Source: Limimonas halophila
GTDB lineage: Bacteria > Pseudomonadota > Alphaproteobacteria > Kiloniellales > Rhodovibrionaceae
Assembly: GCF_900100655.1 (NCBI RefSeq)
Contig: NZ_FNCE01000006.1
Span: forward strand, 124,001-188,000
Direction: 5' to 3'
DNA length: 64,000 bases
Shown in pieces: positions 7,817-25,995 of this stretch; the first letter of the stretch is position 1, and the number at the start of each line of letters is the position of its first letter. The notes under the pieces were generated by a model. That model saw only the letters and a program-made list of their open reading frames with translations. It searched no databases and had not been told where the DNA came from. The position numbers were made by a program, and so were the translations under genes.

Positions 7817-10627
7817 ATGGACACGGGCGTGCTGGATCCGGGCGCCGCGCACGCGGTGGCGCGGCCGGAAAACATCTTCGATCGCGGGGCAGCGCAGGCG
7901 GAGCTGGCCGAGATCACGGCGGCCGGCGACGGCGGCGTGCGGGCGCGCGCGCTTCAGGCCCTGCGGGCGCGGCTGGACGCCGGGCGGCGCGAGATCCGCC
8001 GCCGATTCGAGACGGAGCGCGAACCCGGCAGCAGCCTGATGCGGGCCACCGCTTTCCTCGTCGACGAAGTGGTGCGCACGCTCTACGCCTACGCCGTGGA
8101 GGATCTGCGCCCCGCCGGCACGCCGTCCACGGGCGAGCGCATCGCGCTCGTGGCCACCGGGGGCTACGGGCGCGGCGAGCTGGCGCCGCATTCCGACATC
8201 GATCTGCTGTTCCTGGCGCCCTACAAGCTCACCCCGCACAACGAGCAGGTTGTGGAGGAAATCCTCTACCTGCTGTGGGACCTGGGCTTCCGCGTGGGCC
8301 ACGCCACGCGCTCGCTGGACGAGTGCGTCCGCCACGCGCGCGGCGACGTCACCATCCGCACCAGCCTGCTGGAAGCCCGCCACGTCGCCGGCGACGCCGA
8401 GCTGACGGAGCAACTCAACCAGCGCTTCGCGCGCGAGGTCCAGGCGGGCACGGCCGCGCGCTTCATCGAGGCCAAGCTCAAGGAGCGCGACGCCCGGCAC
8501 AAGCGCATGGGCGATTCGCGCTACCAGCTCGAACCCAACATCAAGGAGGGCAAGGGCGGCCTGCGCGACCTGAACACGCTGTTCTGGATCGCCAAGGACG
8601 TCTACCGCGTGGCGGGCACCGACGCGCTGGTGCGGCGCGGCGTCTTCACCGAGGGCGAGGCGAAACGCTTCGCCAAGGCGCAGACCTTCCTGTGGACGGT
8701 GCGCTTTCACCTGCACGAGCTGACGGGCCGCGCGGAAGAGCGGCTGACCTTCGACCTGCAGAAGGAGATCGCGCCGCGCATGGGCTATCTCGACCACGCG
8801 GGCGCGAGCGCGGTCGAGCGCTTCATGAAGCACTACTACCTGGTTGCCAAGGACGTGGGCGACCTGACGCGCATCCTGTGCGCGCACCTGGAAACCCACC
8901 ACGGCCGGCGCTCGCGCTTCCGCCCGGCGGAACTGCTGCCGCGGCGCTCGGTGGACGGCTTCCAGGTGAAGGGCGACCGGCTGAGCGTGCGCGGGCCGCA
9001 CGTCTTCCGCGATCAGCCGGCGGAAATGCTGCGCATCTTCGCCGTCGCCCACGCGCGCGATCTGGACATCCATCCAACGGCACTGCGCTGGATCCGCCAG
9101 CACCGCAAGCAGCTGGGTGGGCCGGTGCGCCGCGATCCCACGGCCAACGGGTATGTCCGCGACCTCATCTGCGCCCACAAGGACCCGGCCTCCATTCTTC
9201 GCCGCATGAACGAGGCGGGCGTGCTGGGCCGCTTCCTGCCCGAGTTCGGGCGCGTCGTGGCGCAGATGCAGTACAACATGTACCACCACTACACCGTGGA
9301 CGAGCACACGCTGTTCGCGCTGAGCGAGCTGAACCGCATCGAGCGCGGCGAGCTGGCGGAGATCGCGCCCATCGCGACCGAGGTGATCCACAAGGTGCAC
9401 TCACGCCGGGCGCTCTACATCGCGGTGTTCCTGCACGACCTGGGCAAGAGCTACCCCGGCGACCACAGCGAGGTGGGCGCGCGCCTCGCCCGCCGCATGG
9501 GCCCGCGCCTGGGCCTGACGGCCGAGGAAACGGAGACGGTCGCCTGGCTGGTCGAGCATCACCTCGACATGCCGCAGGTGGCCTTCAAGCGCGACCTGGA
9601 AGAGCCCCAGACCATCCGCGACTTCGCCGCCACGGTGCAGTCGCTGGAGCGCCTGCGCCTGCTGGTGTGCCTGACGGTCGCCGACATCCGCGCGGTGGGG
9701 CCGAACGTCTGGACCGACTGGAAGGCGGCGCTGCTGCGCGACCTCTTCTGGAACACCGAGGACGAGCTCAGCGGCGGCTTCCGCGCGGAAAGCCGCGACA
9801 CGCGCGTGCGCCACGCCAAGGACGATTTGACCGCGCGCCTGAGCGACTGGAGCCCGGATGCCCTCGCCGCGCACCTCAGCCGCCCCTACCCGGCCTACTG
9901 GCTCGCCTGGGACGCGGAGACCCACGAGCGCCACGCCCGCCTGGTGCACGAGGCCGATGCGTCCGGCCGCCACCTGACCGTGGACACGCGCGTGGACGGC
10001 TACCGCGGCGTTACCGAGGTCACGGTCTACACGGCCGACCATCCGGGGCTGTTCTCGCGCATCGCGGGCGCGTTGGCGGTGGCGGGCGCGAGCATCACGG
10101 GCGCGCGTATCTTCACGCTGACGACGGGCATGGCGCTGGACACGTTGTGGGTAACCGACGCCAACGGCGGGCCCTTCGACGACCCGGAGAAGCTGGCGGC
10201 CCTGCCCGAGACGGTCGAGCGCACGCTCGCCGGGCGCATCAAGCCCATGCAGGAGCTGGCGGCCCGGCGCACCGGCATCCCCAGCCGCTACGCCGTGTTC
10301 ACGGTTCCCCCGCGCGTCTTCGTCGACAACAACCTGGCCCCGCGCCACACCGTCATCGAGGTGGACGGCCGCGACCGCCCCGGCCTGCTGCACGAGCTGA
10401 CGCAGACGCTGACGCGCTTGAACCTGATGATCCATCAGGCGCGCATCGCCACCTACGGCGAGCGCGTGGTGGACGTCTTCTACGTCGAGGACGTGCTGGG
10501 CGGGCAGGTCAGCCACGACAGCAAGATCAAGCGCATCCGCGAGCGCCTGATCGCCGTGCTGGAAGGCGACGGCGCCTCCGACGGCCGGCGCGGCCAGGGC
10601 CGCGTCGTCGTTCCCATCGAAACGTGA
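7817..10627 (+). CDS. glnD: PII uridylyltransferase / uridylyl-removing enzyme GlnD
   Basis: Bifunctional nitrogen sensor that adds UMP to PII proteins and removes it according to glutamine level; 936 aa from ATG 7817 (the frame is open back to 7730, but AGGGA precedes 7817). The nucleotidyltransferase motif GGYGRGELAPHSDIDLL begins near residue 115. An HD hydrolase domain follows (about 450-620), with FLHDLGKS near 538. Two C-terminal ACT domains start near 733 (ADHPGLFSRIAGAL) and 845 (RDRPGLLHELTQTL) for glutamine binding. Length and domain order match full-length GlnD. Monocistronic by appearance. Confidence 0.96.
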   Translation: MDTGVLDPGAAHAVARPENIFDRGAAQAELAEITAAGDGGVRARALQALRARLDAGRREIRRRFETEREPGSSLMRATAFLVDEVVRTLYAYAVEDLRPAGTPSTGERIALVATGGYGRGELAPHSDIDLLFLAPYKLTPHNEQVVEEILYLLWDLGFRVGHATRSLDECVRHARGDVTIRTSLLEARHVAGDAELTEQLNQRFAREVQAGTAARFIEAKLKERDARHKRMGDSRYQLEPNIKEGKGGLRDLNTLFWIAKDVYRVAGTDALVRRGVFTEGEAKRFAKAQTFLWTVRFHLHELTGRAEERLTFDLQKEIAPRMGYLDHAGASAVERFMKHYYLVAKDVGDLTRILCAHLETHHGRRSRFRPAELLPRRSVDGFQVKGDRLSVRGPHVFRDQPAEMLRIFAVAHARDLDIHPTALRWIRQHRKQLGGPVRRDPTANGYVRDLICAHKDPASILRRMNEAGVLGRFLPEFGRVVAQMQYNMYHHYTVDEHTLFALSELNRIERGELAEIAPIATEVIHKVHSRRALYIAVFLHDLGKSYPGDHSEVGARLARRMGPRLGLTAEETETVAWLVEHHLDMPQVAFKRDLEEPQTIRDFAATVQSLERLRLLVCLTVADIRAVGPNVWTDWKAALLRDLFWNTEDELSGGFRAESRDTRVRHAKDDLTARLSDWSPDALAAHLSRPYPAYWLAWDAETHERHARLVHEADASGRHLTVDTRVDGYRGVTEVTVYTADHPGLFSRIAGALAVAGASITGARIFTLTTGMALDTLWVTDANGGPFDDPEKLAALPETVERTLAGRIKPMQELAARRTGIPSRYAVFTVPPRVFVDNNLAPRHTVIEVDGRDRPGLLHELTQTLTRLNLMIHQARIATYGERVVDVFYVEDVLGGQVSHDSKIKRIRERLIAVLEGDGASDGRRGQGRVVVPIET

Positions 10628-10700
10628 ACGCCCACCGCTTCCGGCACCGCCTGCGCGCTCCTATGCTCCGCCGCCCCCAACGATTGCCGCGAGGCGCACG

Positions 10701-11558
10701 ATGACCGTCGCCCTGATTCAGCTCCCCTACGATTCGGGCCACCGCGAGACGCGCATGGGCCGCGGGCCGGGGCATCTCGTCGCCGCCGGCGCGCCCGAGC
10801 GCATCCGCGCCGCGGGCGAAGAGCCGGTGCCGGCAGCGATCCACAGCGACCACTGCCTGACGGCCGAGATCGCCACCGGTTTCGAACTCGCCGGCAAGCT
10901 CGCGGGCGAGGTGACGCGCGCGCGCCGCGACGGCGCCTGGCCGCTGGTGCTGGCGGGCAATTGCCTGTCCGCCGTGGGCGCGGTGGCGGGGCTGCACGAG
11001 GTGCCGCGCCTGGGCGTGATCTGGCTGGACGCGCACGGCGACCTGAACACGCCCGAAACCACGCTCACGGGCTTTCTCGACGGCATGGCGCTGGGCGTGA
11101 CGGTCGGATGGTGTTTCCGCGCCCTGGCGAAGACGGTTCCGGGCTTCGAGGCGGTGGAAGCGGACCGCATCCTGCACGCGGGCGGGCGCGCCTGGGACGC
11201 CGGGGAGCGCGCGCTGTTCACGAACAGCGGGATGGGCGAGGTGCCGGGCCGGGAATGGGCCGAGCGCGGGCTGCTGGCGATGGAACCGCCGCTTTCGGCG
11301 CTGGCGCGGCAGGTGGACGCCGTTTATCTGCACATCGACATGGACGTGCACGACGCGGGCGCGCTGCGCGCCAACCCCTTCGCCAGCGCGGGCGGCCCCT
11401 CAGCGGCCCAGGTGCGGACGGGCGTGCAGCGCATCGCCGAGCAGGTGCCCATCGTGGGTGCGGGGATCACCGCGCTCGACCCGGCGTGCGACACCGACGG
11501 CGCGGCGAGCGAGGCGGCCCTGGAGTTGATCGGGATGCTCGCCACCCGCCGGGCGTAA
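10701..11558 (+). CDS. Arginase/ureohydrolase-fold protein with altered metal site
   Basis: Member of the ureohydrolase superfamily (arginase, agmatinase, formimidoylglutamase), 285 aa. The second metal motif DAHGDLN (110-116) and the third, HIDMDVHD (211-218, Asp213 and Asp215), are intact. The first motif, normally GGDHS with a metal-binding His, is replaced by GNCLS at 86-90, so one of the usual manganese ligands is missing. Activity may be mononuclear, altered or absent; the substrate cannot be named. It follows glnD by 73 nt on the same strand and is convergent with an XRE regulator. Fold assignment is firm; arginase activity is doubtful. Confidence 0.8.
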   Translation: MTVALIQLPYDSGHRETRMGRGPGHLVAAGAPERIRAAGEEPVPAAIHSDHCLTAEIATGFELAGKLAGEVTRARRDGAWPLVLAGNCLSAVGAVAGLHEVPRLGVIWLDAHGDLNTPETTLTGFLDGMALGVTVGWCFRALAKTVPGFEAVEADRILHAGGRAWDAGERALFTNSGMGEVPGREWAERGLLAMEPPLSALARQVDAVYLHIDMDVHDAGALRANPFASAGGPSAAQVRTGVQRIAEQVPIVGAGITALDPACDTDGAASEAALELIGMLATRRA

Positions 11559-11596: not shown

Positions 11597-12352
11597 TTAC
11601 AGCGCCGGCGGGCCCATGCGGTCGGGGAGCACCATGACGACCTTGTGCAGGTCGGAGACGCGGACGTTCTCGCCCACAGTGCCGGCGACGCCGTGCTCGT
11701 CCAGCAGCACCAGGCGCCCGCTTTCATCGCGCGCGGTCGTGCCGACGAGCGGCGCCCAGCCGAAGGGATTCACCGCCGGGTCGCCGAGGACGCAGCGCGC
11801 TTCCGGGTCCACCACCGCGACCATGGTGTGGTAGCTGTTGGCGAAGCAGGCGCCGGCGGGCAGGCGCACGCCGTAGGCCGTGGGGCCGAGGTCGGCGACC
11901 TCGGGCAGCGGCATGTCCGTGCGGTGGCTCGGGCTGGGGCCCTGCGCCTGCAGTTCGCGGCCGCCGTAGCAGGGCAGCGGGCGCGTGCGCGGGCTCGCCG
12001 CCGGCTCGGTGATCTGGAAGACGGCCGTTTCGGCGCGCGGGTCATGCTCCAGCAGCGTGCGCAGGTGGGCGAAGCCGACGCCGTAGGCTTCGGCCGCGCG
12101 GGCCATGTGCTTGCCCGTGATGTCGCGGATGCCGTTCTCGACGCGGCTGAGCTCCGCCTTGGAAATGCCCATCGTCTCGGCCGCGCCGGTGAGGGACAGG
12201 CCCGCGCGCTCGCGCAGCCACGCCAGCCGTTCGCCGCGTGTGCGGATGCACGCCTCGTCGAGGCCGGCTTTGTCCGTCGAGATGCCGTCGCCCGGCTGCT
12301 CCGCGATCTCGGCGCGCATGTTCGTCTTCGTTAGCTGCCCACGCTCAGCCAT
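11597..12352 (-). CDS. XRE-family transcriptional regulator with C-terminal sensor region
   Basis: A 251-aa protein. ATG 12352 is chosen because AGGAG lies nine bases before it; the open frame extends 37 codons further without a site. A helix-turn-helix of the Cro/CI type lies at about 40-95 (LAWLRERAGLSLTGAAETMG and SKAELSRVENG). The C-terminal half (about 120-251) has no motif I recognise. It is divergent from nothing close by: its 3' end faces the arginase-fold gene, and its upstream side is an AT-rich gap with a GTTTATAAAC palindrome. Target genes are unknown. Confidence 0.75.
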   Translation of the reverse strand: MAERGQLTKTNMRAEIAEQPGDGISTDKAGLDEACIRTRGERLAWLRERAGLSLTGAAETMGISKAELSRVENGIRDITGKHMARAAEAYGVGFAHLRTLLEHDPRAETAVFQITEPAASPRTRPLPCYGGRELQAQGPSPSHRTDMPLPEVADLGPTAYGVRLPAGACFANSYHTMVAVVDPEARCVLGDPAVNPFGWAPLVGTTARDESGRLVLLDEHGVAGTVGENVRVSDLHKVVMVLPDRMGPPAL

Positions 12353-12723
12353 GAGCCCCGCTCCTGCTGCCACGGTTATGATATGGGCAGCGTACGTATC
12401 CCTTGCAGCCGCGAAAAACGACCGAACGATATAGATGCAGCAACGCGTTTCTGACGATATCATTGAAAAAAGTTTATAAACATTACTTTTGGGCCGAAAA
12501 GCAGCAGGTGCCCGACGCGATCAGCCGCTGTCGCGCCCGCGCCAGCACGCGGCGGGATAGCGGATCCCTTCGCGGTGAGCCCGCGTGCATGGCGAGCAGC
12601 CGAAATTCGTCGCGTCGGATGCGGGATGCGTGCGCCCGGGAACGAGGGCGGCCCACGTGATCCGATGTGGCGCTTTCGGAGTATCCCGCCGCGCGCGCCG
12701 GGCGCGTGCCACCGGCACCACCG
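12353..12723. other. Non-coding gap upstream of the XRE regulator
   Basis: About 370 bp without a convincing gene. The stretch 12,360-12,490 is unusually AT-rich for this window and holds the perfect palindrome GTTTATAAAC at 12472-12481, next to a run of A (GAAAAAAG). It probably contains the promoter and operator of the XRE regulator. The rest is GC-rich with no evident signal. Confidence 0.5.
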
Positions 12724-13476
12724 TCAGGCAGCATCAATCAAGGCGAAGTGCATCGCGCGCACGGCCGCGTGCGCCCGGGTCGGCGTTTGAAGTTTGCGCC
12801 GGACGTTGGCGATGTGCTGGCCGACCGTGCCCTCGGCGATGCCGAGGATGTCGCCGATCTCGCCACTCGTCTTGCCGGCCGCCACCCAGCGCAGACACTC
12901 GCGCTCACGCTCGGTGAGCACGGCGTCGTCGGTCAAGCCGGCGCCGCCCGTGGCTTCGAGCACGTTGGACGCCCGTTCGTGGACGTGCAGCGCCAGACTG
13001 GTGACGGCGTCGCGTGTGTAGGTCAGAATTTCCTCACGTTCCCGCGGCGAGCCATCCGCGATGGCCGTCACCAACGCGAACGTGTCGGGGCCGTGCACCG
13101 GAATCGCCACCCCGTCCCGGATCCCGTAATCCTGGGCCTCACTGAAGACCTGCGCGCTTCGCGCGGGAATGTGCCCCTTGCTTCGCGGCATCCACGTAAA
13201 GGGCAGCACGGAACGCCGCGCGTTTACGTGTAACAGGTCGTCGCAAACATAGTTCTTTTCCAGGTATCGCGTAATCCACCGCCTGTCGAAATTGGAAAAG
13301 TACCCTTCGAGACGCTCGCCATGCGGCCGGCGGCGGGCCATGTAATAACTGTATTGCTTGAATCCGATATCGTTGAGGAAATCGGCGGCAATCCGCTCGA
13401 TCTCCGTCAAAGTCGGGGCCGACTCGAGATCCGTCACCACGCGTTCGGGCAACCGGACGCCCAGTTGCGGCTCCAT
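12724..13476 (-). CDS. LuxR-type quorum-sensing transcriptional regulator
   Basis: Acyl-homoserine-lactone receptor and transcription factor, 250 aa, ATG 13476 with GGAGG nine bases upstream. The N-terminal autoinducer-binding domain (about 15-165) keeps the residues that line the TraR/LuxR ligand pocket: W67, Y71, D80, W95 and the glycine in GIRDGVAIP (G122), with the W-x3-Y-x8-D spacing exact. The residue after D80, normally Pro, is Leu81. The C-terminal LuxR helix-turn-helix starts at LTERERECLRWVAAGKTSGE (187) and includes GTVGQHIANVRRKL. It is divergent from the P450-LuxI fusion with 146 bp between starts, so it is almost certainly that gene's partner regulator. Confidence 0.92.
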   Translation of the reverse strand: MEPQLGVRLPERVVTDLESAPTLTEIERIAADFLNDIGFKQYSYYMARRRPHGERLEGYFSNFDRRWITRYLEKNYVCDDLLHVNARRSVLPFTWMPRSKGHIPARSAQVFSEAQDYGIRDGVAIPVHGPDTFALVTAIADGSPREREEILTYTRDAVTSLALHVHERASNVLEATGGAGLTDDAVLTERERECLRWVAAGKTSGEIGDILGIAEGTVGQHIANVRRKLQTPTRAHAAVRAMHFALIDAA

Positions 13477-13531
13477 CCGTCGGCACCTCCGTGATCGCCT
13501 CTCGCCGCTTCCGTTTCACACGGCAACATCG

Positions 13532-13545
13532 AGAAACTTGTTTCT
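13532..13545. promoter_or_regulatory. Dyad AGAAAC-TT-GTTTCT between luxR and P450-luxI (lux-box candidate)
   Basis: A perfect 6-2-6 inverted repeat lies in the AT-rich middle of the 146-bp divergent intergenic region, about 55 bp from the luxR start and 78 bp from the P450-luxI start. On the luxR strand TATACT (13554 to 13549) right beside it could be a -10 element. Position suits a LuxR-family operator. The sequence differs from the Vibrio lux box, so the assignment is inference. Confidence 0.4.
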
Positions 13546-13622
13546 AAAAGTATACCATACACGAGATAGGTTTCGGAAGCGTCCACAGCCAGGCTTCCCC
13601 TATACAACCGAAAGGGGGAAAC

Positions 13623-15620
13623 ATGGCTGCCGAACTTACGCATTCCGCTATCGACGATGGTGCCAACGCCGAGCACACACCCGGGACCACCATCAAGGGA
13701 TGGCCGTTTCTGGGCGTTGCGCCCCAGCTGAAACAGGACGCCCCCAATTTCCTCCTCCAGTGTGCGCGGAAGCACGGCGGCATCACAACGATGCGCGTAG
13801 CGGGGATGCGGTGTCATCTGCTCGCGGACCCGAATGCCGTGGATCACGTGCTCCGCCGACACAATGGAAACTACCACAAGCAGCATTTCGTCGAGAAGCT
13901 CAAGCCCATCCTCGGCGACGGACTCGTCACCTCCAACGGGGAACGGTGGTCCGCAAGCCGTCGGATCATCCAGGCCATGTTCACGGCGCGCAGCGTGGAC
14001 CGCCTGTTGGCGGACATGGACCACGAGATTTCCAAGACCGCCGACGACTGGACCAGGACCACGCAGGTTCGCGACATGGTTTCGGAGCCGTGCGGGCTGA
14101 GCCTGCGTGTGCTCGCGCGCACGATGTTCGGCGACCTGGACGGCCAGCGCGTGGAGCAGGTCGTTTCCGCTGTGTCCGACATTCAAAAGTATCTGCGGGA
14201 CCGGATGTGGTCGTCCGTGCCCTATCCCGAGTTCCTGCCAACGCCCGCCAACAAGAGCTTCAAGCAAGCCCGACGGACGGTGGCCTCCGTCCTCGAGGAG
14301 TTGATTTCGCGGCTGCGCGCGAACGGCGAACAAGGCCGCGACCTCGTGAGCACCCTGACCCACGCGGTCGATCCCTCCAGTGGCCAGAAGCTTTCCGAGC
14401 GCCAGCTGCGCCACGAGGCCATGACGATCTTCTTCGCCGGCCACGAGACGACCGGGAACGCGCTGTCGTGGGTCTTCTACCTGCTTTCCCAGCACCCCGA
14501 GGTGCAGGAAAAGGTGCGGCAAGAGGTCCTCGAACACGTGCCGCACGACGAAACGCCGTCGGTCCATCTGCTCAAGAACCTCCCCTACACGCGCGCGGTG
14601 CTCGAGGAGACCCTGCGGCTGTATCCGCCGGCCTTCTGGTTCGCGCGCACGTGCTCGCGGGACGACGTCATTCTGGGCCGGTCGATCAAGAAGGGGGACG
14701 TCATGATCATGGCGCCCTACGTCACCCAGCGCCTGGAGGACCTGTGGCCGGACCCCGACACCTTCCGCCCCGAACGCTTCCTGGAGGGTAGCCCGCGGCA
14801 CCGCTACGCCTACTTCCCGTTCGGCGGCGGGCCGCGAACCTGCCCGGGCGGCCACTTCGCCATGGCCGAGATGACGCTCATCATGGCCCGGGTGCTCCAG
14901 CGCGCGACGGTGGAACCCGCCGCCCCGGCAACCGGGGAGCAGGAGGCGCTCGTCACGCTCCGGCCGAAGGACGGGCTGCCGGTTCGCCTGCAGCCCTGCA
15001 CGCGGACGATCCACGTCGAGGACACCCATCCCGGCGAGAACGCCCTGGTCGACGCCGCGCTGCGGCTGCGCAAGCGGGTGTTCGTGGACCTCAAGGGCTG
15101 GCCGGTGAACACGGACGAGCAGGGCCGCGAACACGACCAGTTCGACACGCGCCACACCCGCCACATCGTCACGGTGGACCGGGGCCGCGTCGTGGCGGCG
15201 GCCCGGGCGATGCCGCTCGATCAGCCCTCGTTGCTGATGGACGTCTTCCCCTGGCTGATCCAGGGCGAGCGCGACGCCTACAAGACGCGCGACTACTGGG
15301 AAGGCGCGCGGCTGGTGGCCGACCCGGAGCTGTCCGCCCACGACAGCCGGCACTACCTCGCCAAGCTGCTGTACGACACGATCAGCCGGTTCCACGCCGA
15401 GGGAGTCACGGCGTTGCTGACGGTCTCCGACCCCGTGATGGAACGCGTGCTCAAGCGCGTGGGGGCAAACCCGCAGCGTCTGGGGCCGGTGAAGCGCGAC
15501 GATCACGGCTTCCCGGTGCTCGCGCTCTACCTGCCGTGCAACCAGACCACGCTGGATCAGCTGGCGGGCCGCGCCGCGCCGGACCGCCAGCCCGTCGAGG
15601 CGCCCGCCGCGGCGGCGTGA
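13623..15620 (+). CDS. Cytochrome P450 fused to LuxI-type acyl-homoserine-lactone synthase
   Basis: One 665-aa ORF, ATG 13623 with AAGGGGG upstream. Residues about 20-459 are a complete P450: I-helix AGHETT (272-277), ExxR (E329-R332), FRPERF (381-386), and heme loop FPFGGGPRTCPGG with ligand Cys407. No reductase or ferredoxin domain is present. Residues about 462-645 are a complete LuxI-family synthase that keeps all eight residues invariant in LuxI/EsaI: R483, F487, W493, D505, D508, R528, E560, R563. The P450 ends in a normal C-terminus and the synthase begins almost at once, so neither half is truncated. LuxI enzymes make AHLs from acyl-ACP and S-adenosylmethionine. Some P450s (BioI) oxidise acyl-ACP, so the fusion may oxidise the acyl chain before or after lactone transfer; that step is inference. 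Confidence 0.9.
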   Translation: MAAELTHSAIDDGANAEHTPGTTIKGWPFLGVAPQLKQDAPNFLLQCARKHGGITTMRVAGMRCHLLADPNAVDHVLRRHNGNYHKQHFVEKLKPILGDGLVTSNGERWSASRRIIQAMFTARSVDRLLADMDHEISKTADDWTRTTQVRDMVSEPCGLSLRVLARTMFGDLDGQRVEQVVSAVSDIQKYLRDRMWSSVPYPEFLPTPANKSFKQARRTVASVLEELISRLRANGEQGRDLVSTLTHAVDPSSGQKLSERQLRHEAMTIFFAGHETTGNALSWVFYLLSQHPEVQEKVRQEVLEHVPHDETPSVHLLKNLPYTRAVLEETLRLYPPAFWFARTCSRDDVILGRSIKKGDVMIMAPYVTQRLEDLWPDPDTFRPERFLEGSPRHRYAYFPFGGGPRTCPGGHFAMAEMTLIMARVLQRATVEPAAPATGEQEALVTLRPKDGLPVRLQPCTRTIHVEDTHPGENALVDAALRLRKRVFVDLKGWPVNTDEQGREHDQFDTRHTRHIVTVDRGRVVAAARAMPLDQPSLLMDVFPWLIQGERDAYKTRDYWEGARLVADPELSAHDSRHYLAKLLYDTISRFHAEGVTALLTVSDPVMERVLKRVGANPQRLGPVKRDDHGFPVLALYLPCNQTTLDQLAGRAAPDRQPVEAPAAAA

Positions 15621-15712: not shown

Positions 15713-16264
15713 CTATTCAAATCCGACGAGCTTCGGTTCCGGCGCCGACCGATCCACGGTCAGCTCGGCGCGATAGACGCCGGGCTCGGCGCCAGCCGGC
15801 ACCACGAAGGTCGCGCCCACGACGACCGGGCGGCGGTCTTCCGCGGCCCTGACCCGCACCGTCAGGCTGGCGCCGTCCGTGCTGGTCGCGTCCACGCGCC
15901 CCCGCACCTCCATCGCAACCGGCACGAGCGCGCGGTCTGCGTCGCCCCGCCGGGCGGGTTCGACCGTGATCGTCACGGGTCCGCCGCCGGCGGGGGCGAG
16001 CGCGCCCGGGCGGCTGGCGTCGGGATCAACGTCGGCGCCGCCGCGGGCAGTCACGGTGTTCGCGGCGCGCACCGCGACGGCACCGGGTTTGGCGGCTTTG
16101 TCGGCGAGCACGATCTCAACGGCCCCGTTCGCCAGGTCCGCGGGATCGAGGCTCACGATCCGCGCCGTGGCATTGCTCACCGCGCCCGCCGCCGCTGCCG
16201 GGCCGGCAGGCAACACGCTGGCGACCACCAGACTTCCGACAATGCCTTTCAGCGCGCGAATCAC
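15713..16264 (-). CDS. Exported DUF4402-like protein (second of a pair)
   Basis: Small secreted protein, 183 aa from GTG 16264. The frame is open to 16321, but GGGAGA eight bases before 16264 favours this start. Residues 1-27 look like a signal peptide (IRALKGIVGSLVVASVLPAG, then PAAAAG). The mature part is Ala/Val/Gly-rich beta-type sequence ending in GATFVVPAGAEPGVYRAEL, which resembles the C-terminal VPAGAxxGxYxGxLTV signature of DUF4402 proteins. Function is unknown; the family is often cell-surface or periplasmic. It lies 90 bp downstream of a paralog (16355-16876), probably one operon. Confidence 0.65.
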   Translation of the reverse strand: MIRALKGIVGSLVVASVLPAGPAAAAGAVSNATARIVSLDPADLANGAVEIVLADKAAKPGAVAVRAANTVTARGGADVDPDASRPGALAPAGGGPVTITVEPARRGDADRALVPVAMEVRGRVDATSTDGASLTVRVRAAEDRRPVVVGATFVVPAGAEPGVYRAELTVDRSAPEPKLVGFE

Positions 16265-16354
16265 CGCCACTCTCCCGCCGTTACTGGTGATCAGGGTGAT
16301 GCGAACACGTTTCTGGATCAAATCTTTGATATCGTCTTGAATTCGATCGATGGC

Positions 16355-16876
16355 TCAGCCGCCGCTGTCCACCCTGACCTCGGCCCGGTAAACGTCCGCC
16401 TCGGCCCCCAGCGGAACAGCGAAGGTGGCGCCCACGCGGATGCTGACGGCGCGCGGGCCGGGCGGCGGGACCAGGGTGAGCGTGGCATCGCCGTCGGACG
16501 CCGCGCCCCAGGACGCCCGCGCCGTCACCCCCAGCGGCACCAGCTGCGCACCCTGCGTTCCGTGAGCGTGCCCCACCCGGAGCGTCAGCCGCCGCATCCT
16601 GTCGACGCGCAGCCGGCCGGGGTCGCACCCCGCGGGCACCGGGCGCGCGCCGCCGCGCGCGACGACCTCGCCCGTTGTGTGCACAGCCACGGCGCCCGGT
16701 TGCCGCGCCGGCCGGGCGAGCACGACGGCGATGCCGGCCCGCGTCGAGGTATCCACCGCGCCGACGACATGGGCGGTCGCCTGTGCCGTCGCGCTGCCGG
16801 CCGCACCGAATTCGGGCGTCATGGCCGCGCCCGCCGCCACCACGGCCCATCCCGCCATCGCCGCTTTGCCGCGCAT
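16355..16876 (-). CDS. Exported DUF4402-like protein (first of a pair)
   Basis: Small secreted protein, 173 aa from ATG 16876, which AGGGGG precedes by four bases; a GTG at 16879 is an alternative. It has an N-terminal signal peptide (RGKAAMAGWAVVAAGAAM) and the same overall layout as its neighbour at 15713-16264, including a late GATFAVPLGAEADVYRAEV motif. The two are diverged tandem paralogs; both match the weak DUF4402 pattern. The body contains two cysteine-poor beta-rich blocks. Function unknown. Confidence 0.65.
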   Translation of the reverse strand: MRGKAAMAGWAVVAAGAAMTPEFGAAGSATAQATAHVVGAVDTSTRAGIAVVLARPARQPGAVAVHTTGEVVARGGARPVPAGCDPGRLRVDRMRRLTLRVGHAHGTQGAQLVPLGVTARASWGAASDGDATLTLVPPPGPRAVSIRVGATFAVPLGAEADVYRAEVRVDSGG

Positions 16877-17033
16877 CACGCCCCCTGCCGAAACCACGAC
16901 CAGGGTAGGCGGCTGTTGTTTCGATTCCGATTTGTCTGAGTGGTGTAACCGGGAATGGGAAGTGCGCCCCGCGCGCGGCCGGCGACGCGCGGCCTTCCCC
17001 CGCCCGGCGGCGGTACGCTACACGGACCCGGTC

Positions 17034-18599
17034 ATGGCACTGCTGCGCCACTTCGCCACCGTCGGCGGGCTGACCGGCATCAGCCGCCTCCTGGGCTTCG
17101 CGCGCGACGTCCTGATGGCGGCGGTGCTCGGCACGGGGCCGGTGGCGGACGCCTTCTTCGTCGCCTTCCGCCTGCCCAACGTCTTCCGCCGCCTGGTCGC
17201 CGAGGGCGCGTTCAACGCCGCCTTCGTGCCCGTCTTCGCGCGCACGCTGGAAGCGGACGGGCGGCCGCCCGCGTGCCGGCTGGCCGAAGAGGTGCTGGCG
17301 GTGCTGCTGGCCGCGGTGGCGGCGCTGACGCTGGCGGCCGTGGCCGGCATGCCGTGGCTGATGCAAGTGCTGGCGCCGGGCTTCGCGGACGACCCGGCCA
17401 AGTTCGACACGGCCGTGCTGCTCACGCGCCTGACGTTCCCGTATCTGCTGTTCATGGCGCTGGTGATGCTCTACGGCGGCATCCTGAATTCGCTGTACCG
17501 CTACGCCGCCTTCGCCGCCGCGCCCATCGTGCTGAACGTGTGCTTCCTCGTGGCGCTGGCGGCCGTGGTGCCCGTCGTGGGCGATGCCGGCCCCGTGCTG
17601 GCGTGGACGGTGACGCTGGCGGGCATCGCGCAGTTCGTCCTGCTGGTGGCGGTGTGCCACCGGGCGGGGATCCGCCTGCACCTGCCACTCCCGCGCGTGA
17701 CCGAGGGCGTGCGCCGGACGCTGCGCCTGATGGGGCCGGGCGTTCTTTCGGCCGGCGCGCTGCAGCTCAACCTGCTGGTGGGGACGATGATCGCCTCCCT
17801 CCAAGCGGGGGCGGTGAGCTACCTCTACTACGCGGACCGGGTGTACCAGCTTCCCCTCGGCCTCATCGGCATCGCGCTGGGCGTGGTGCTGCTGCCCGAC
17901 CTCTCGCGCACGCTGCGCGCGGGCGACGCCGAGGGTGCGCGCGACCGCCTGAACCGCGGGCTGGAGCTGGCGATGCTGCTGGGCCTGCCCGCGGCCGCGG
18001 CGCTGATCGCCGTGCCCACGCCCATCGTTGGCGTGCTGTTCGAGCGCGGCGCCTTCGCGGGCGAAGCAACGCAGGCGACGGCGGCGGCGCTGATGGCGTT
18101 CGCGGTGGGCGTGCCCGCCTTCATCGGGGTGAAGATCCTCCAGCCCGCCTTTTTCGCGCGCGAGGACACGATGTCCCCCTTCAAGGCCGCAGCCGCCGGC
18201 TCGGCCACCAACATCGCGCTGGCGATCGGGCTGTTTTCCGCCATCGGGCACGAAGGCATCGCGCTCGCCACCGCGCTCGCCTCCTGGCTGGAAAGCGCGC
18301 TGCTGGCGGCGTGGCTGTACCGCGCCGGCCACCTGCGCCCGGACGCGCGGCTGAAGGCGCGGCTGCCGCGGATGCTCCTGGCAACCCTTGGCATGGCAGG
18401 CACGGTTTCAGGGGCAGCGAGCCTACTCGCCCCGTTGCTCACGGCCGGGCCCGCGCGGGCGGTACCGGCGCTGGCGGCGTTGGTGCTGGCGGGGATGGCC
18501 GTCTACGGCGGGCTGGCGCTGGCGCTCGGCGCGGCGCGGATGGGCGAGCTGCGCGGGCTGCTGCGTCGGCGGGCGGCGGCGGACACCGGCCCGGCTTGA
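17034..18599 (+). CDS. murJ: Lipid II flippase MurJ
   Basis: Peptidoglycan precursor flippase of the MOP superfamily, 521 aa from ATG 17034; upstream in-frame sequence belongs to a spurious extension. The start [29 protein letters not shown] is the MurJ signature, followed by the [22 protein letters not shown] motif near 38-60. About fourteen hydrophobic segments span the protein. It ends 59 bp before trpS on the same strand; in many alphaproteobacteria murJ and trpS are neighbours, often near glnD as here (glnD lies 6 kb upstream). Confidence 0.93.
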
Positions 18600-19877: not shown

Positions 19878-21683
19878 TCAAGGCAGGTCCCAATTGCTCT
19901 CCGAAAGCCATTCAACAAAACTATTAACTTCTTCCCAGTAATTAACATATTGTTTCCAGTTTTCCGTCCGCTCAACGGCGTACGCGAACTCCTCCCAAGC
20001 AGCTTCATCTTTCTTATTAAGATTTAATACTACCTCAATATCGCCATACCGCCAGAACCATATCCCATTTTGCTTATGAACATCACGCAACCTATCAAGC
20101 GCGCTAGAACAATCCCCCCTTAATGCCAAATATTTAACAGCCTCTCGCTGAGTTAAACCTTGTTCCCCACTTCTCGGATTTCGCGGCCTCCCAGCCTCAT
20201 TTAATTGTACTGGGTAGGTGTCCATGCTAATATCAACAAACCCCTGCAAACATCTTTGCAAATTTTCATCGTTTTCAGCAATGATCCCACGTTTTACTGA
20301 TGCATCGAATATGTGGTCAAGATCGGTTATCCCACGCGCCGCTATACCCATGTCGCTCAGTAGATCTTTTGCAAGTCCCATAGACCCTTTTCCGCTATGC
20401 ACGATTGAAATGCCACAATCTTCTAGCGTAAATCCAGTAATCTTTTCGTACAAAGCAGGCAATACCACCAGTTCTGTTTTTCCTTCAACTAACAAAACCT
20501 TATCCGAAAACAGCCATTTGCTGGAATTTTTTAGTTCCATAAGAACTTTTTGCAAAGTCATATTCGGGTCACTAGCCTGCTCTTCAAGACTTTTAGCTAG
20601 GTTGTTTGCAATAAACGTTCTCCCCGGCTCGCTCTTTCGAACGACTGCAGTATACGGTATATGGGTTCGTGAGATCATCATTGGCGAATGCGTTGCAAAA
20701 ATTACCTGATATGACGATCTCGAAAGACGGTATAAGGCGACTCTAACTTTTTCTACTGCCTGAGGATGCAGATATAACTCTGGCTCCTCGACAAGCAAAA
20801 CTTGCCGCCTGCTATCTGACGCAATTTGCGATCTGATCTCTGAAAAATATCTTATTAGAGCAATTTGGATGGACCTCTGTGACCCGTGGCCGAGGTCCGC
20901 CATGTCTGATTGCACGCCAAAATGGGGCTCGCGAACTTTAACTGTTCCTGATTGAAATAACTTTCTTGCGTCTGGAACAGGAACGTGCAACTGGACATTC
21001 ACCCCAGGAAAAAACTCAGATAAAATACGATCAACATTTTTATCAAAGTCTTTGAGTATTTCTGGTCTGCTATCTCCATCCTGATTTATTAGTCTGTCAA
21101 TTTCTTGCAGTTTATTTCCAACGACTTGTCCATATTGTTCGTGCAGCGGATCGATAAATAGCCCTAACAACCGTCCAATTGTGGTTCCTGCCTTGGCCTT
21201 TGTACTGTCCTCAGTTGCATCTTCCATAGCTCCTATATCGATTGGCTCCGGAAACAACGCCTCTATTGCTTGACGTATGCCGCTTGGGTTTTTGTTCCAT
21301 TCACCAGAGGAACCTTGATGTGGCTTGTAGATTTCTAAATTTATATCGCTTTTCTTCTGGCCGGGTGTGTTCTGACGCTGCCGTATCCATATTTGTTCGT
21401 TGCTCACGAACTCCTGTATTTTTGCTTGATGGCGAGATTGTAAAGAGTTTAAAATATCGTCAGAAACCCCTTCAATTAATGCAGTTACACAAATAGGATT
21501 TTGTTCATCATAGAAGTCAGACGACTGTAACGAGTATGGACTTAAAATCCATTTTATTGCAAAAAGTATATTTGATTTTCCAGCGTTGTTGTAACCTACT
21601 AGAGGCGTGAAAGAATTAACCCATAATGACACGTTTTCGCAGGAACGAAAATTGTGGATCTCAACATATTTTAATGAATGCAT
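19878..21683 (-). CDS. OLD-family ATP-dependent endonuclease (ATPase plus TOPRIM)
   Basis: A 601-aa ATPase-nuclease, ATG 21683 with AGGGGGAG upstream. The ABC/SMC-type ATPase begins IHNFRSCENV, with Walker A GYNNAGKSN at 30-38, an ABC-like signature (LGHGSQRS), Walker B LLVEEPELYLHPQ near 297 and switch histidine in FATHSPMM. A TOPRIM nuclease domain follows: VLLVEGKTELVV near 395 and GITDLD near 454. This is the OLD/GajA architecture. No UvrD-like helicase partner lies beside it, so a class 1 single-gene OLD nuclease fits better than a Gabija system. The gene is visibly AT-rich (two sampled 60-base lines are 47% and 38% GC) in a very GC-rich chromosome, with A/T-ending codons: clear horizontal transfer. 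A phage-defence role is likely but inferred. Confidence 0.85.
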   Translation of the reverse strand: MHSLKYVEIHNFRSCENVSLWVNSFTPLVGYNNAGKSNILFAIKWILSPYSLQSSDFYDEQNPICVTALIEGVSDDILNSLQSRHQAKIQEFVSNEQIWIRQRQNTPGQKKSDINLEIYKPHQGSSGEWNKNPSGIRQAIEALFPEPIDIGAMEDATEDSTKAKAGTTIGRLLGLFIDPLHEQYGQVVGNKLQEIDRLINQDGDSRPEILKDFDKNVDRILSEFFPGVNVQLHVPVPDARKLFQSGTVKVREPHFGVQSDMADLGHGSQRSIQIALIRYFSEIRSQIASDSRRQVLLVEEPELYLHPQAVEKVRVALYRLSRSSYQVIFATHSPMMISRTHIPYTAVVRKSEPGRTFIANNLAKSLEEQASDPNMTLQKVLMELKNSSKWLFSDKVLLVEGKTELVVLPALYEKITGFTLEDCGISIVHSGKGSMGLAKDLLSDMGIAARGITDLDHIFDASVKRGIIAENDENLQRCLQGFVDISMDTYPVQLNEAGRPRNPRSGEQGLTQREAVKYLALRGDCSSALDRLRDVHKQNGIWFWRYGDIEVVLNLNKKDEAAWEEFAYAVERTENWKQYVNYWEEVNSFVEWLSESNWDLP

Positions 21684-22042
21684 GGCTCCCCCTGTCGATA
21701 CCGAAAGTTGCACTATGATCCGATGGTGCAACTGTGTAAGCGCTCGGTGCAGGCTAGTCAACTATTCTAGACGTTGTCGCACGGCGGCGGACATGCCGTG
21801 ATCGCGGAGCTGACTCTCCCGAGGCGCGAGAAAGAGGAGTTATTGTGGGCTTACGGCCGATGCGGCCCGCTTGGCCCAGCCGCTTGCGTCGGCACTCTGA
21901 TAATTGATGCCGCCGACGGCGTTTGTCGTGTCGACAGGCGCGTTACGCGAGATGGGGCGCGCCCCGCGGTAGCGGGCATGGTTGCGATGTCCGATTAACT
22001 GTGGGCGGTATTGGGGTTCCGGCTCTCGGCCGTCCACAGGCT
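21684..22042. other. Non-coding gap beyond the AT-rich islet
   Basis: About 360 bp where composition returns from AT-rich to the genome norm near 21,780, marking the right edge of the transferred segment. A perfect GGGGCGCGCCCC palindrome lies at 21954-21965. A 74-codon open frame at 21774-21998 has no ribosome-binding site and ordinary shadow-like composition. No integrase, tRNA or obvious flanking direct repeat was found by eye. Confidence 0.45.
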
Positions 22043-24944: not shown

Positions 24945-25898
24945 TTACTGCAGCCCGTGTTGGCCCATGTTGAGGAACTTCTCGCGGCGCATGCGCCGCA
25001 GCGCCTCGCCCTCGTGCTGGCGCAGCGCGTGGAACTCGCGCTCCATGCGGGCACCGACGGCGTCGATCGTCTTGCGCTGGTCGCGGTGCGCGCCGCCCAG
25101 CGGCTCGTCGATCGCCTCGTCGATGACCTCCAGCTTGGCGAGGTCCTGGGCCGTCAGCTTGAGCTGTTCGGCGGCGTCCTTGGCGTGTTCGCCGGTGCGC
25201 CAGAGGATGGAGGCGCACCCCTCGGGCGAGATCACGGAATAGATCGCGTGCTCCAGCATGAAGACGGCGTTGGCGGCGGCCAGCGCGATGGCGCCGCCGG
25301 AGCCGCCCTCGCCCACGACCGTGGTGACGACCGGCACGCGCAGGTCGAGCGTGGTTTCGATGGAGCTGGCGATGGCCTCGGCCTGGCCGCGCTCCTCGGC
25401 GCCGATGCCGGGATAGGCGCCCGGCGTGTCGACCAGGGTGAAGACGGGCACGTCGAAGCGCTCGGCCATGCGCATCAGGCGCTGCGCCTTGCGGTAGCCC
25501 TCGGGGTTGGCCATGCCGAAGTTGTGGCGCACGCGCGTGGTGGTGTCGTGGCCCTTCTCGTGGCCGATCCACACGCTGGTGTAGCCGCGAAAGCGCCCGA
25601 TGCCGCCGATGACCGCCGGGTCGTCGCCGTAGCGCCGGTCGCCGGCGAGCGGCGTGAAGTCGTCCACCAGGCGGTGGATGTAGTCGCTCACGTGCGGGCG
25701 GTCGGGGTGGCGGGCCACCTGCGTCTTCTGCCAGGGCGTCAGCCGCGCGTAGGTCTGGCGCAGCATGCGCTCGGCCTTGGCCTGGAGCTTCGCCACCTCC
25801 TCGGCGATGTTCATCTCGCCGGTGTCGGAGAGATGGCGCAGTTCCTCGATCTTGCCTTCCAGATCGGCGATCGGTTTTTCGAAGTCGAGGAAATGCAT
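24945..25898 (-). CDS. accA: Acetyl-CoA carboxylase carboxyltransferase subunit alpha
   Basis: Alpha half of the carboxyltransferase that makes malonyl-CoA for fatty acid synthesis, 317 aa from ATG 25898 (a GTG one codon earlier is possible). The start MHFLDFEKPIADLEGKIEEL is the family signature. The crotonase-fold region contains GHEKGHDT (with the conserved N-terminal KARxx helices before it), TLVDTPGAYPGIGAEERGQAE and VVGEGGSGGALALA-like sequence (GEGGSGGAIALAAAN). Length matches the family. The MAPEG gene follows closely. Confidence 0.96.
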   Translation of the reverse strand: MHFLDFEKPIADLEGKIEELRHLSDTGEMNIAEEVAKLQAKAERMLRQTYARLTPWQKTQVARHPDRPHVSDYIHRLVDDFTPLAGDRRYGDDPAVIGGIGRFRGYTSVWIGHEKGHDTTTRVRHNFGMANPEGYRKAQRLMRMAERFDVPVFTLVDTPGAYPGIGAEERGQAEAIASSIETTLDLRVPVVTTVVGEGGSGGAIALAAANAVFMLEHAIYSVISPEGCASILWRTGEHAKDAAEQLKLTAQDLAKLEVIDEAIDEPLGGAHRDQRKTIDAVGARMEREFHALRQHEGEALRRMRREKFLNMGQHGLQ

Positions 25899-25995
25899 CA
25901 CACGCCCACCCGCTGCCGATTCACATGCGCGCGGACGCTAGCGATCCGGAAATGGGGAAACAAGTGCGCGCCGGGGAAGCGCGCGAGGCGGCGGA

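Follow-up and report, generated by a model that had tools for sequence, protein, structure and literature searches.

In the usual view, the acyl donor accepted by the LuxI synthase determines the chemistry of N-acyl-homoserine lactone (AHL) signals. The locus described here resembles those of LuxI-family AHL synthases in having a full-length synthase domain, the eight invariant residues of the family and a luxR neighbour, and differs from them in that the synthase sits behind a cytochrome P450 and carries Ala in place of Ser/Thr between its catalytic Glu and Arg. The P450 part shares its fold and motifs with CYP184A1 and with the heme domain of BM3 (CYP102A1), relatives that bind fatty acyl chains. 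It differs from BM3 in being joined to a signal synthase and in lacking the C-terminal fused reductase domain by which CYP102 enzymes are recognised. According to an excerpt of PMC3355433, CYP102A1 adds hydroxyl groups to C12-C20 AHLs near the chain end, at positions w-1 to w-3. Poly-hydroxylated AHLs, the kind of product predicted for the fusion, are made by the marine alphaproteobacterium MOLA 401, and in the excerpt of PMC5479921 the authors suggest a P450 as their source; there the P450 is a hypothesis, and the word "fusion" is absent from the excerpted text. A passage of PMC4886583 was rejected as containing a primer name, not an enzyme. Both domains thus belong to known families; their combination and the signal it implies are undescribed in the literature searched, which comprised titles and the starts of abstracts, with most subscription journals outside the search.

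We propose that the fusion is probably a bifunctional synthase of a chain-oxidised AHL. Physical linkage of a P450 to LuxI would bring an oxidation step of its own into the making of the signal, open hydroxylated AHLs to genetic study and allow the type of signal to be predicted from genomes. The fusion, present in two lineages, would also serve as an existing enzyme for producing oxidised lactones in two steps.

The fused gene and its recurrence

The window, the whole 64,000-nucleotide stretch of Limimonas halophila DNA that was analysed, contains a frame of 665 codons plus stop at 13623-15620 (+), which translates into 665 aa without an internal stop. Its P450 half (residues 1-458; 13623-14996, +) matches PF00067 at residues 25-433 (295.9 bits, E 6.6e-88), and its LuxI half (residues 459-665; 14997-15617, +) matches PF00765 at residues 473-646 (84.8 bits, cut-off 24, E 7.3e-24), the alignment covering model positions 7-182 of 183. 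The only other Pfam model to match the fusion is that of FeeM (PF21926). The P450-like part stops at about residue 457 and the first invariant Arg of LuxI is residue 483, so the N-terminus of the LuxI domain is normal and a linker is almost absent. GC content at third codon positions is 0.90-0.97 across residues 401-640, unbroken at the junction of the two halves, and therefore gives no sign of a frameshift there. The translation and the Pfam matches bear out the original prediction of a single 665-codon frame with a full P450 and a full LuxI domain, both of normal length with almost no linker between them, and all of the P450 and LuxI residues it named were found where it had placed them. It had also raised the possibility of a frameshift or assembly join at about residues 455-465, against which the third-position GC content and the homologous fusions speak. 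An assembly artefact was likewise rejected, since the same fusion occurs at 46% identity in two genomes of another family, which is evidence against an assembly join. The P450-LuxI fusion in the window is confirmed as genuine.

The scanned genes around the fusion include chromosomal housekeeping genes (MurJ, 16677-18599; AccA, 24945-25901). Behind the fusion lies a small ORF (15713-16321, -) whose match to DUF4402 is sub-threshold (22.9 vs 25.2 bits), next to another small ORF (16355-16897, -) with no Pfam match. An OLD-family-like gene at 19878-21761 (-), encoding an AAA ATPase and an OLD-like TOPRIM domain, is a possible defence gene.

A PF00765 survey of 385 genomes of the class found 59 with a match and, besides the window, one frame of nearly 700 codons. 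This second fusion, in genome G207, encodes 686 aa (JANQIX010000006.1; L054:8667-10727, -; stretches L054 and L061 are on the same contig) and is 46% identical to the window protein across window residues 37-650. A third, with likewise about 46% identity to the protein of the window, surfaced in genome G808 in a search of the 17 genomes of G207's family (JANQQD010000106.1; L062:2614-4674, +). When the LuxI parts of two fusions were compared with the contigs of 84,980 species, seven loci were returned, two of which were the G207 and G808 fusions; the whole window protein as query found no match in the same contigs. No further full-length fusion was present in 98 relatives or 61 genomes of the order (the window genome being counted in both), nor any further fusion in the 17 genomes of G207's order, which are the same 17 as its family. 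The same was true of 369 genomes from a different class within the phylum and of the 385 class genomes on rescanning, with at most three candidates scored per genome in both scans. In a survey of the phylum (398 genomes, at least 108 with a match), only the window's frame exceeds 500 aa among the matches listed.

Other long frames around LuxI matches, among those listed, measured 358 aa (G545 and G688) and 407 aa (G730). Two further candidates, open frames of 459 aa (G317) and 427 aa (G017), were rejected as luxR-like and luxI ORFs lying in different overlapping frames with no P450 seen, and the stretches L055 and L056 contain no P450. Phage records (five matches) and plasmids (781 matches) held no full-length fusion, none of the matches covering 80%, and viral contigs held no relative of it. 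Two unannotated phage records contain stretches resembling one half each, P450-like in OQ572403.1 (Pseudomonas phage Y1) and LuxI-like in OQ572407.1 (Pseudomonas phage Y5); either could be host DNA.

The G207 and G808 fusions are 96-97% identical to each other, and as their genomes are close kin, the three genomes represent only two lineages with the fusion. Between these two genes, the P450 half differs at 150 nucleotides and 19 residues in 464 codons (dN/dS 0.0223/0.505) and the LuxI half at 72 nucleotides and nine residues in 221 codons (0.0216/0.490). Both ratios are about 0.044; judged from these substitution rates, both halves are shown to be under purifying selection. The presence of the same fusion in distant relatives suggests that its product is probably an oxidised signal not described so far. 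By their record names, the two genomes are PL24a_bin.80 (G207) and IP29b_bin.19 (G808). IP29b relates to the coral palifera, and the samples PL23a, PL25a and PL25b come from P. lutea, according to an excerpt of PMC9868349; the source of PL24a we infer from its naming style, which matches that of the latter three. This lineage apparently lives in coral skeletons. The L062 record is titled Anaerolineae and that of G207 Alphaproteobacteria, with the former genome placed in G207's genus, probably a mislabel by the submitter.

The two catalytic halves and the proposed product

In the proposed mechanism, the N-terminal P450 would obtain electrons from a separate ferredoxin and reductase and hydroxylate the fatty chain, possibly to the keto form, and the C-terminal LuxI domain would couple a fatty-acyl group to SAM and release the AHL. 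As substrate of the P450, a completed AHL or a precursor with a long chain is more likely than an acyl chain cleaved in the manner of BioI. Being fused would hold the two steps stoichiometric and close, so that the exported signal would be mainly the oxidised form, and the product of the divergent luxR gene would be the receptor that senses it and switches the locus. Enzymatic activity, product identity, step order, redox partner and receptor pairing are the parts of this proposal that we infer. The original prediction, that the fusion could channel an oxidised acyl chain into a homoserine lactone, holds up in that the fusion is real and recurrent, has luxR beside it and keeps its catalytic residues: loss of either catalytic set in homologues, which it had named as contrary evidence, is not seen, both sets being intact in 3/3 fusions. 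Its comparison with BioI is not supported, as described below.

The I-helix motif AGHETT (residues 272-277; 14436-14453, +), ExxR (E329/R332; 14607-14618, +), PERF (residues 383-386) and the heme Cys407 (14841-14843, +) of the P450 half are intact in all three fusions, and by the combination of heme Cys, ExxR and I-helix [AG]Gx[DE]T[TS] all three belong to the P450 family. Among the best 60 of 479 sequence matches to solved chains, the nearest is CYP184A1 (7wzl/7wzm, E 2.9e-61), one entry of which (7wzm) contains oleic acid; it is followed by 3dbg (a putative P450, 6.5e-45), LUT5 and BM3-type chains, and LUT5, a plant carotenoid P450, is joined high in these 60 by cholesterol 24-hydroxylase. 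By fold, BM3 heme domains come behind CYP184A1 among the 50 matches listed, which derive from a weak model, and three of the 50 are engineered BM3 variants with N-decanoyl-homoserine lactone. That AlphaFold model (pLDDT 61.5, pTM 0.46) is uninformative on domain geometry. The nearest NCBIfam P450 model is albaflavenone monooxygenase/terpene synthase (223 bits vs a cut-off of 700), and the pentalenene oxygenase model scores 205 bits vs 800. Given the terpene-oxidase models, LUT5 and cholesterol 24-hydroxylase, a fatty-chain substrate is not fixed by sequence. The substrate argument leans mostly on the fusion to LuxI and on the gene pairs described below, sequence alone being insufficient.

BioI is absent among the best 60 of 479 sequence matches and the 50 fold matches listed, with CYP184A1 at the top and BM3 heme domains high, and the comparison with BioI is not supported. 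This bears on a different order of events, in which the P450 would work on acyl-ACP or acyl-CoA before LuxI takes up the product, perhaps with BioI-like cleavage or shortening of the chain. The P450 being the N-terminal half fits such an order; domain order is, however, no firm guide to reaction order, and among the matches listed sequence and fold favour CYP184A1 and BM3, not BioI. We consider this order unlikely. No redox partner was found at the fusion locus; the four PF00111 matches of the window genome could include one, and 0/4 are on the window's contig.

The fused P450 is the sole PF00067 match in the window genome (completeness given as 100), and G207 and G808 have three and five matches. 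The subfamily to which it belongs is not tied to luxI. It is matched at E<=1e-75 in 25/385 genomes of the class, including the G207 fusion, and only six of the other 24 have luxI beside the match; it is also matched in 8/369 genomes from the other class of this phylum that was scanned. Close P450 relatives away from luxI in so many genomes, and best NCBIfam models that are terpene oxidases, would be in keeping with two enzymes of different pathways whose fusion serves only joint expression controlled by quorum sensing. We regard such a union as improbable, because luxI-P450 pairing recurs in several families and the equal constraint on both halves argues for a single pathway.

All eight residues that the original prediction names as invariant in LuxI enzymes (R483, F487, W493, D505, D508, R528, E560 and R563) are present in the window protein and retained in 3/3 fusions. 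Position 562 (15306-15308, +) in the LuxI alignment is Ala in 3/3 fusions and Ser/Thr in 68/68 other rows, one gene (L055/L120) being counted twice. At this position the fusions depart from E-x-[ST]-R, with Ser/Thr between the catalytic Glu and Arg, a pattern that is not among the eight invariants; the substitution, adjacent to the catalytic E..R, might make LuxI less active. It also raises the question whether the LuxI half makes some other N-acylated compound, such as a FeeM-like N-acyl amino acid, and the window protein does weakly pass the FeeM model (32.3 vs 27 bits). That the product is not an AHL nevertheless seems very improbable: the PF00765 score is far above that of FeeM, the eight AHL-synthase invariants are all there, the window LuxR has an autoinducer-binding domain and homologues of it stand beside the other two fusions, and the best solved match of the LuxI half is 3p2f, an "AHL synthase", followed by 6wn0, a 4-coumaroyl-HSL synthase. 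Identity as a PEP-CTERM/exosortase acyltransferase was rejected; TIGR03694 has no match in the window at E<=0.001 and reaches 17.4 bits on the G207 fusion, below its cut-off of 111.95.

The fused AHL synthase domain is the sole PF00765 match in G207 and in G808. The window genome has a second, separate luxI that adjoins a LuxR-like ORF on contig C7 (L048:9129-9884 and 9901-10815, -), and no P450 lies within 19 kb around this second luxI.

The luxR and XRE genes beside the fusion

Divergent from the fusion is a luxR gene (12724-13476, -) whose product matches the autoinducer-binding domain PF03472 (84.7 bits) and the HTH domain PF00196 (64.4 bits), both over cut-off, and behind it on the same strand lies a gene for an XRE-type HTH regulator (11597-12463, -). 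The arrangement is the same at all three fusion loci: at G207 the LuxR and XRE proteins are 43% and 37% identical to the window's, and G808 also carries the divergent luxR and the XRE gene. Repeated fusions with luxR neighbours, which had been named in advance, together with an oxidised AHL, as support for the original prediction, have thus been found in the window, G207 and G808, with a divergent luxR at each.

In TraR numbering, the window LuxR keeps 5/6 conserved positions and has Leu in place of Pro71. Leu is found there in 3/3 fusion-linked LuxRs and Pro in 61/63 others (one gene, L055/L120, being doubled), and single conserved positions vary in other LuxRs of the set too. If LuxI position 562 and LuxR position 71 have the roles presumed for them, the changes of S/T to A in the synthase and P71 to L in the receptor are suggestive of a changed signal. 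Seen in three fusions from two lineages, this joint change of synthase and receptor is the sequence evidence nearest to an altered ligand, and is only suggestive. We find the case evenly balanced that one polypeptide makes a new class of signal, the chain-oxidised AHLs, with synthase and receptor co-adapted through these two changes.

The same change of receptor is relevant to the opposite role for the P450, namely that it attenuates the signal by turning the AHL made by the attached LuxI half into a weaker, oxidised molecule and so acts as a timer or self-quencher. An excerpt of PMC3355433 reports that oxidation by CYP102A1 lowers but does not abolish AHL activity in a bioassay. A synthase and an inactivator in a fixed 1:1 ratio would, however, presumably waste signal, the changed conserved position of LuxR at all three fusions reads more easily as adaptation to the product, and in the gene pairs the P450 comes after luxI, as the gene of a tailoring enzyme would. 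Attenuation is therefore, in our view, a doubtful reading next to synthesis of an oxidised signal.

The intergenic region between luxR and the fusion (13477-13622) holds a candidate operator, the perfect 6-bp inverted repeat AGAAAC-TT-GTTTCT at 13532-13545, which is absent at the other two fusion loci. No lux box or promoter element common to the three loci was found by eye or by a simple palindrome scan.

Separate luxI-P450 gene pairs and the origin of the fusion

At 20 loci in relatives (12 in relatives from the order, six from the class and phylum, and the loci L060 and L066), luxI is followed by a P450 gene on the same strand, with gaps of 3 to 496 nt as measured with start codons chosen by rule. 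The 12 loci of the order were selected because their P450 match had a LuxI match nearby. Among 40 luxI loci taken from the class (39) and phylum (1) lists, a P450 is next to luxI in six; one of the 40 lacked a luxI match at the chosen threshold, and some of the stretches ended close to luxI. The pairs are like the fusion in that the same two enzyme families adjoin; they differ in being two proteins with luxI first and, in 16/20, a small ORF between them, whereas in the fusion the P450 comes first and there is none. They constitute an independently seen functional link between luxI and P450.

Eleven of the 12 loci in the order have a luxR of the same cluster, 11 have a gene of an AMP-binding-ligase cluster nearby and ten one of an MFS cluster, the ligase and MFS clusters being named from their members at L027. 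The single ligase scanned most resembles long-chain fatty-acyl-CoA ligases, with scores under each of the curated cut-offs listed. A ligase-like gene at 11/12 of these loci makes acyl thioesters plausible substrates and in this respect counts towards a P450 that acts before LuxI, the order judged unlikely above. If the fusion does make a chain-oxidised AHL, the luxI-P450 pairs would suggest that P450-tailored AHLs are a widespread and overlooked class of signal in Alphaproteobacteria.

Whether the fusion arose from such a pair was addressed with trees of both domains. The fusions form one clade in each (support 99/99 for P450 and 100/100 for LuxI). The P450 half falls weakly beside three P450s of the pairs (81/78), and the LuxI half weakly beside four LuxIs with no P450 in the stretch covered (81/90), not with the LuxIs of the pairs. 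Forcing fusions and pairs together was not rejected (p-AU 0.074 for P450, 0.162 and 0.277 for LuxI). With the LuxI half grouping apart and the AU tests not rejecting a common group, these trees do not prove that the fusion descends from a gene pair; origin from a pair and a separate origin are neither shown nor rejected.

The small ORF between luxI and P450 (about 60-110 aa) was found in 16/20 pair loci with E below 1e-15 in a search for which 12/13 seeds came from pair loci, so that only 4/16 positives are non-seeds. No match to it was found at E<=1 in the window, L054, L061 or L062. The copy at L029 (L029:9592-9867, +) has no Pfam or NCBIfam match and that at L086 (L086:5308-5739, +) no NCBIfam match. 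It also occurs at a few luxI loci that have no P450 in the stretch covered. At L024-L029 and L032-L034, luxR, luxI, the small ORF, the P450, an MFS transporter and the fatty-acyl-CoA-ligase-like gene stand in an operon-like block, which gives the impression of a pathway dedicated to a signal or a metabolite.
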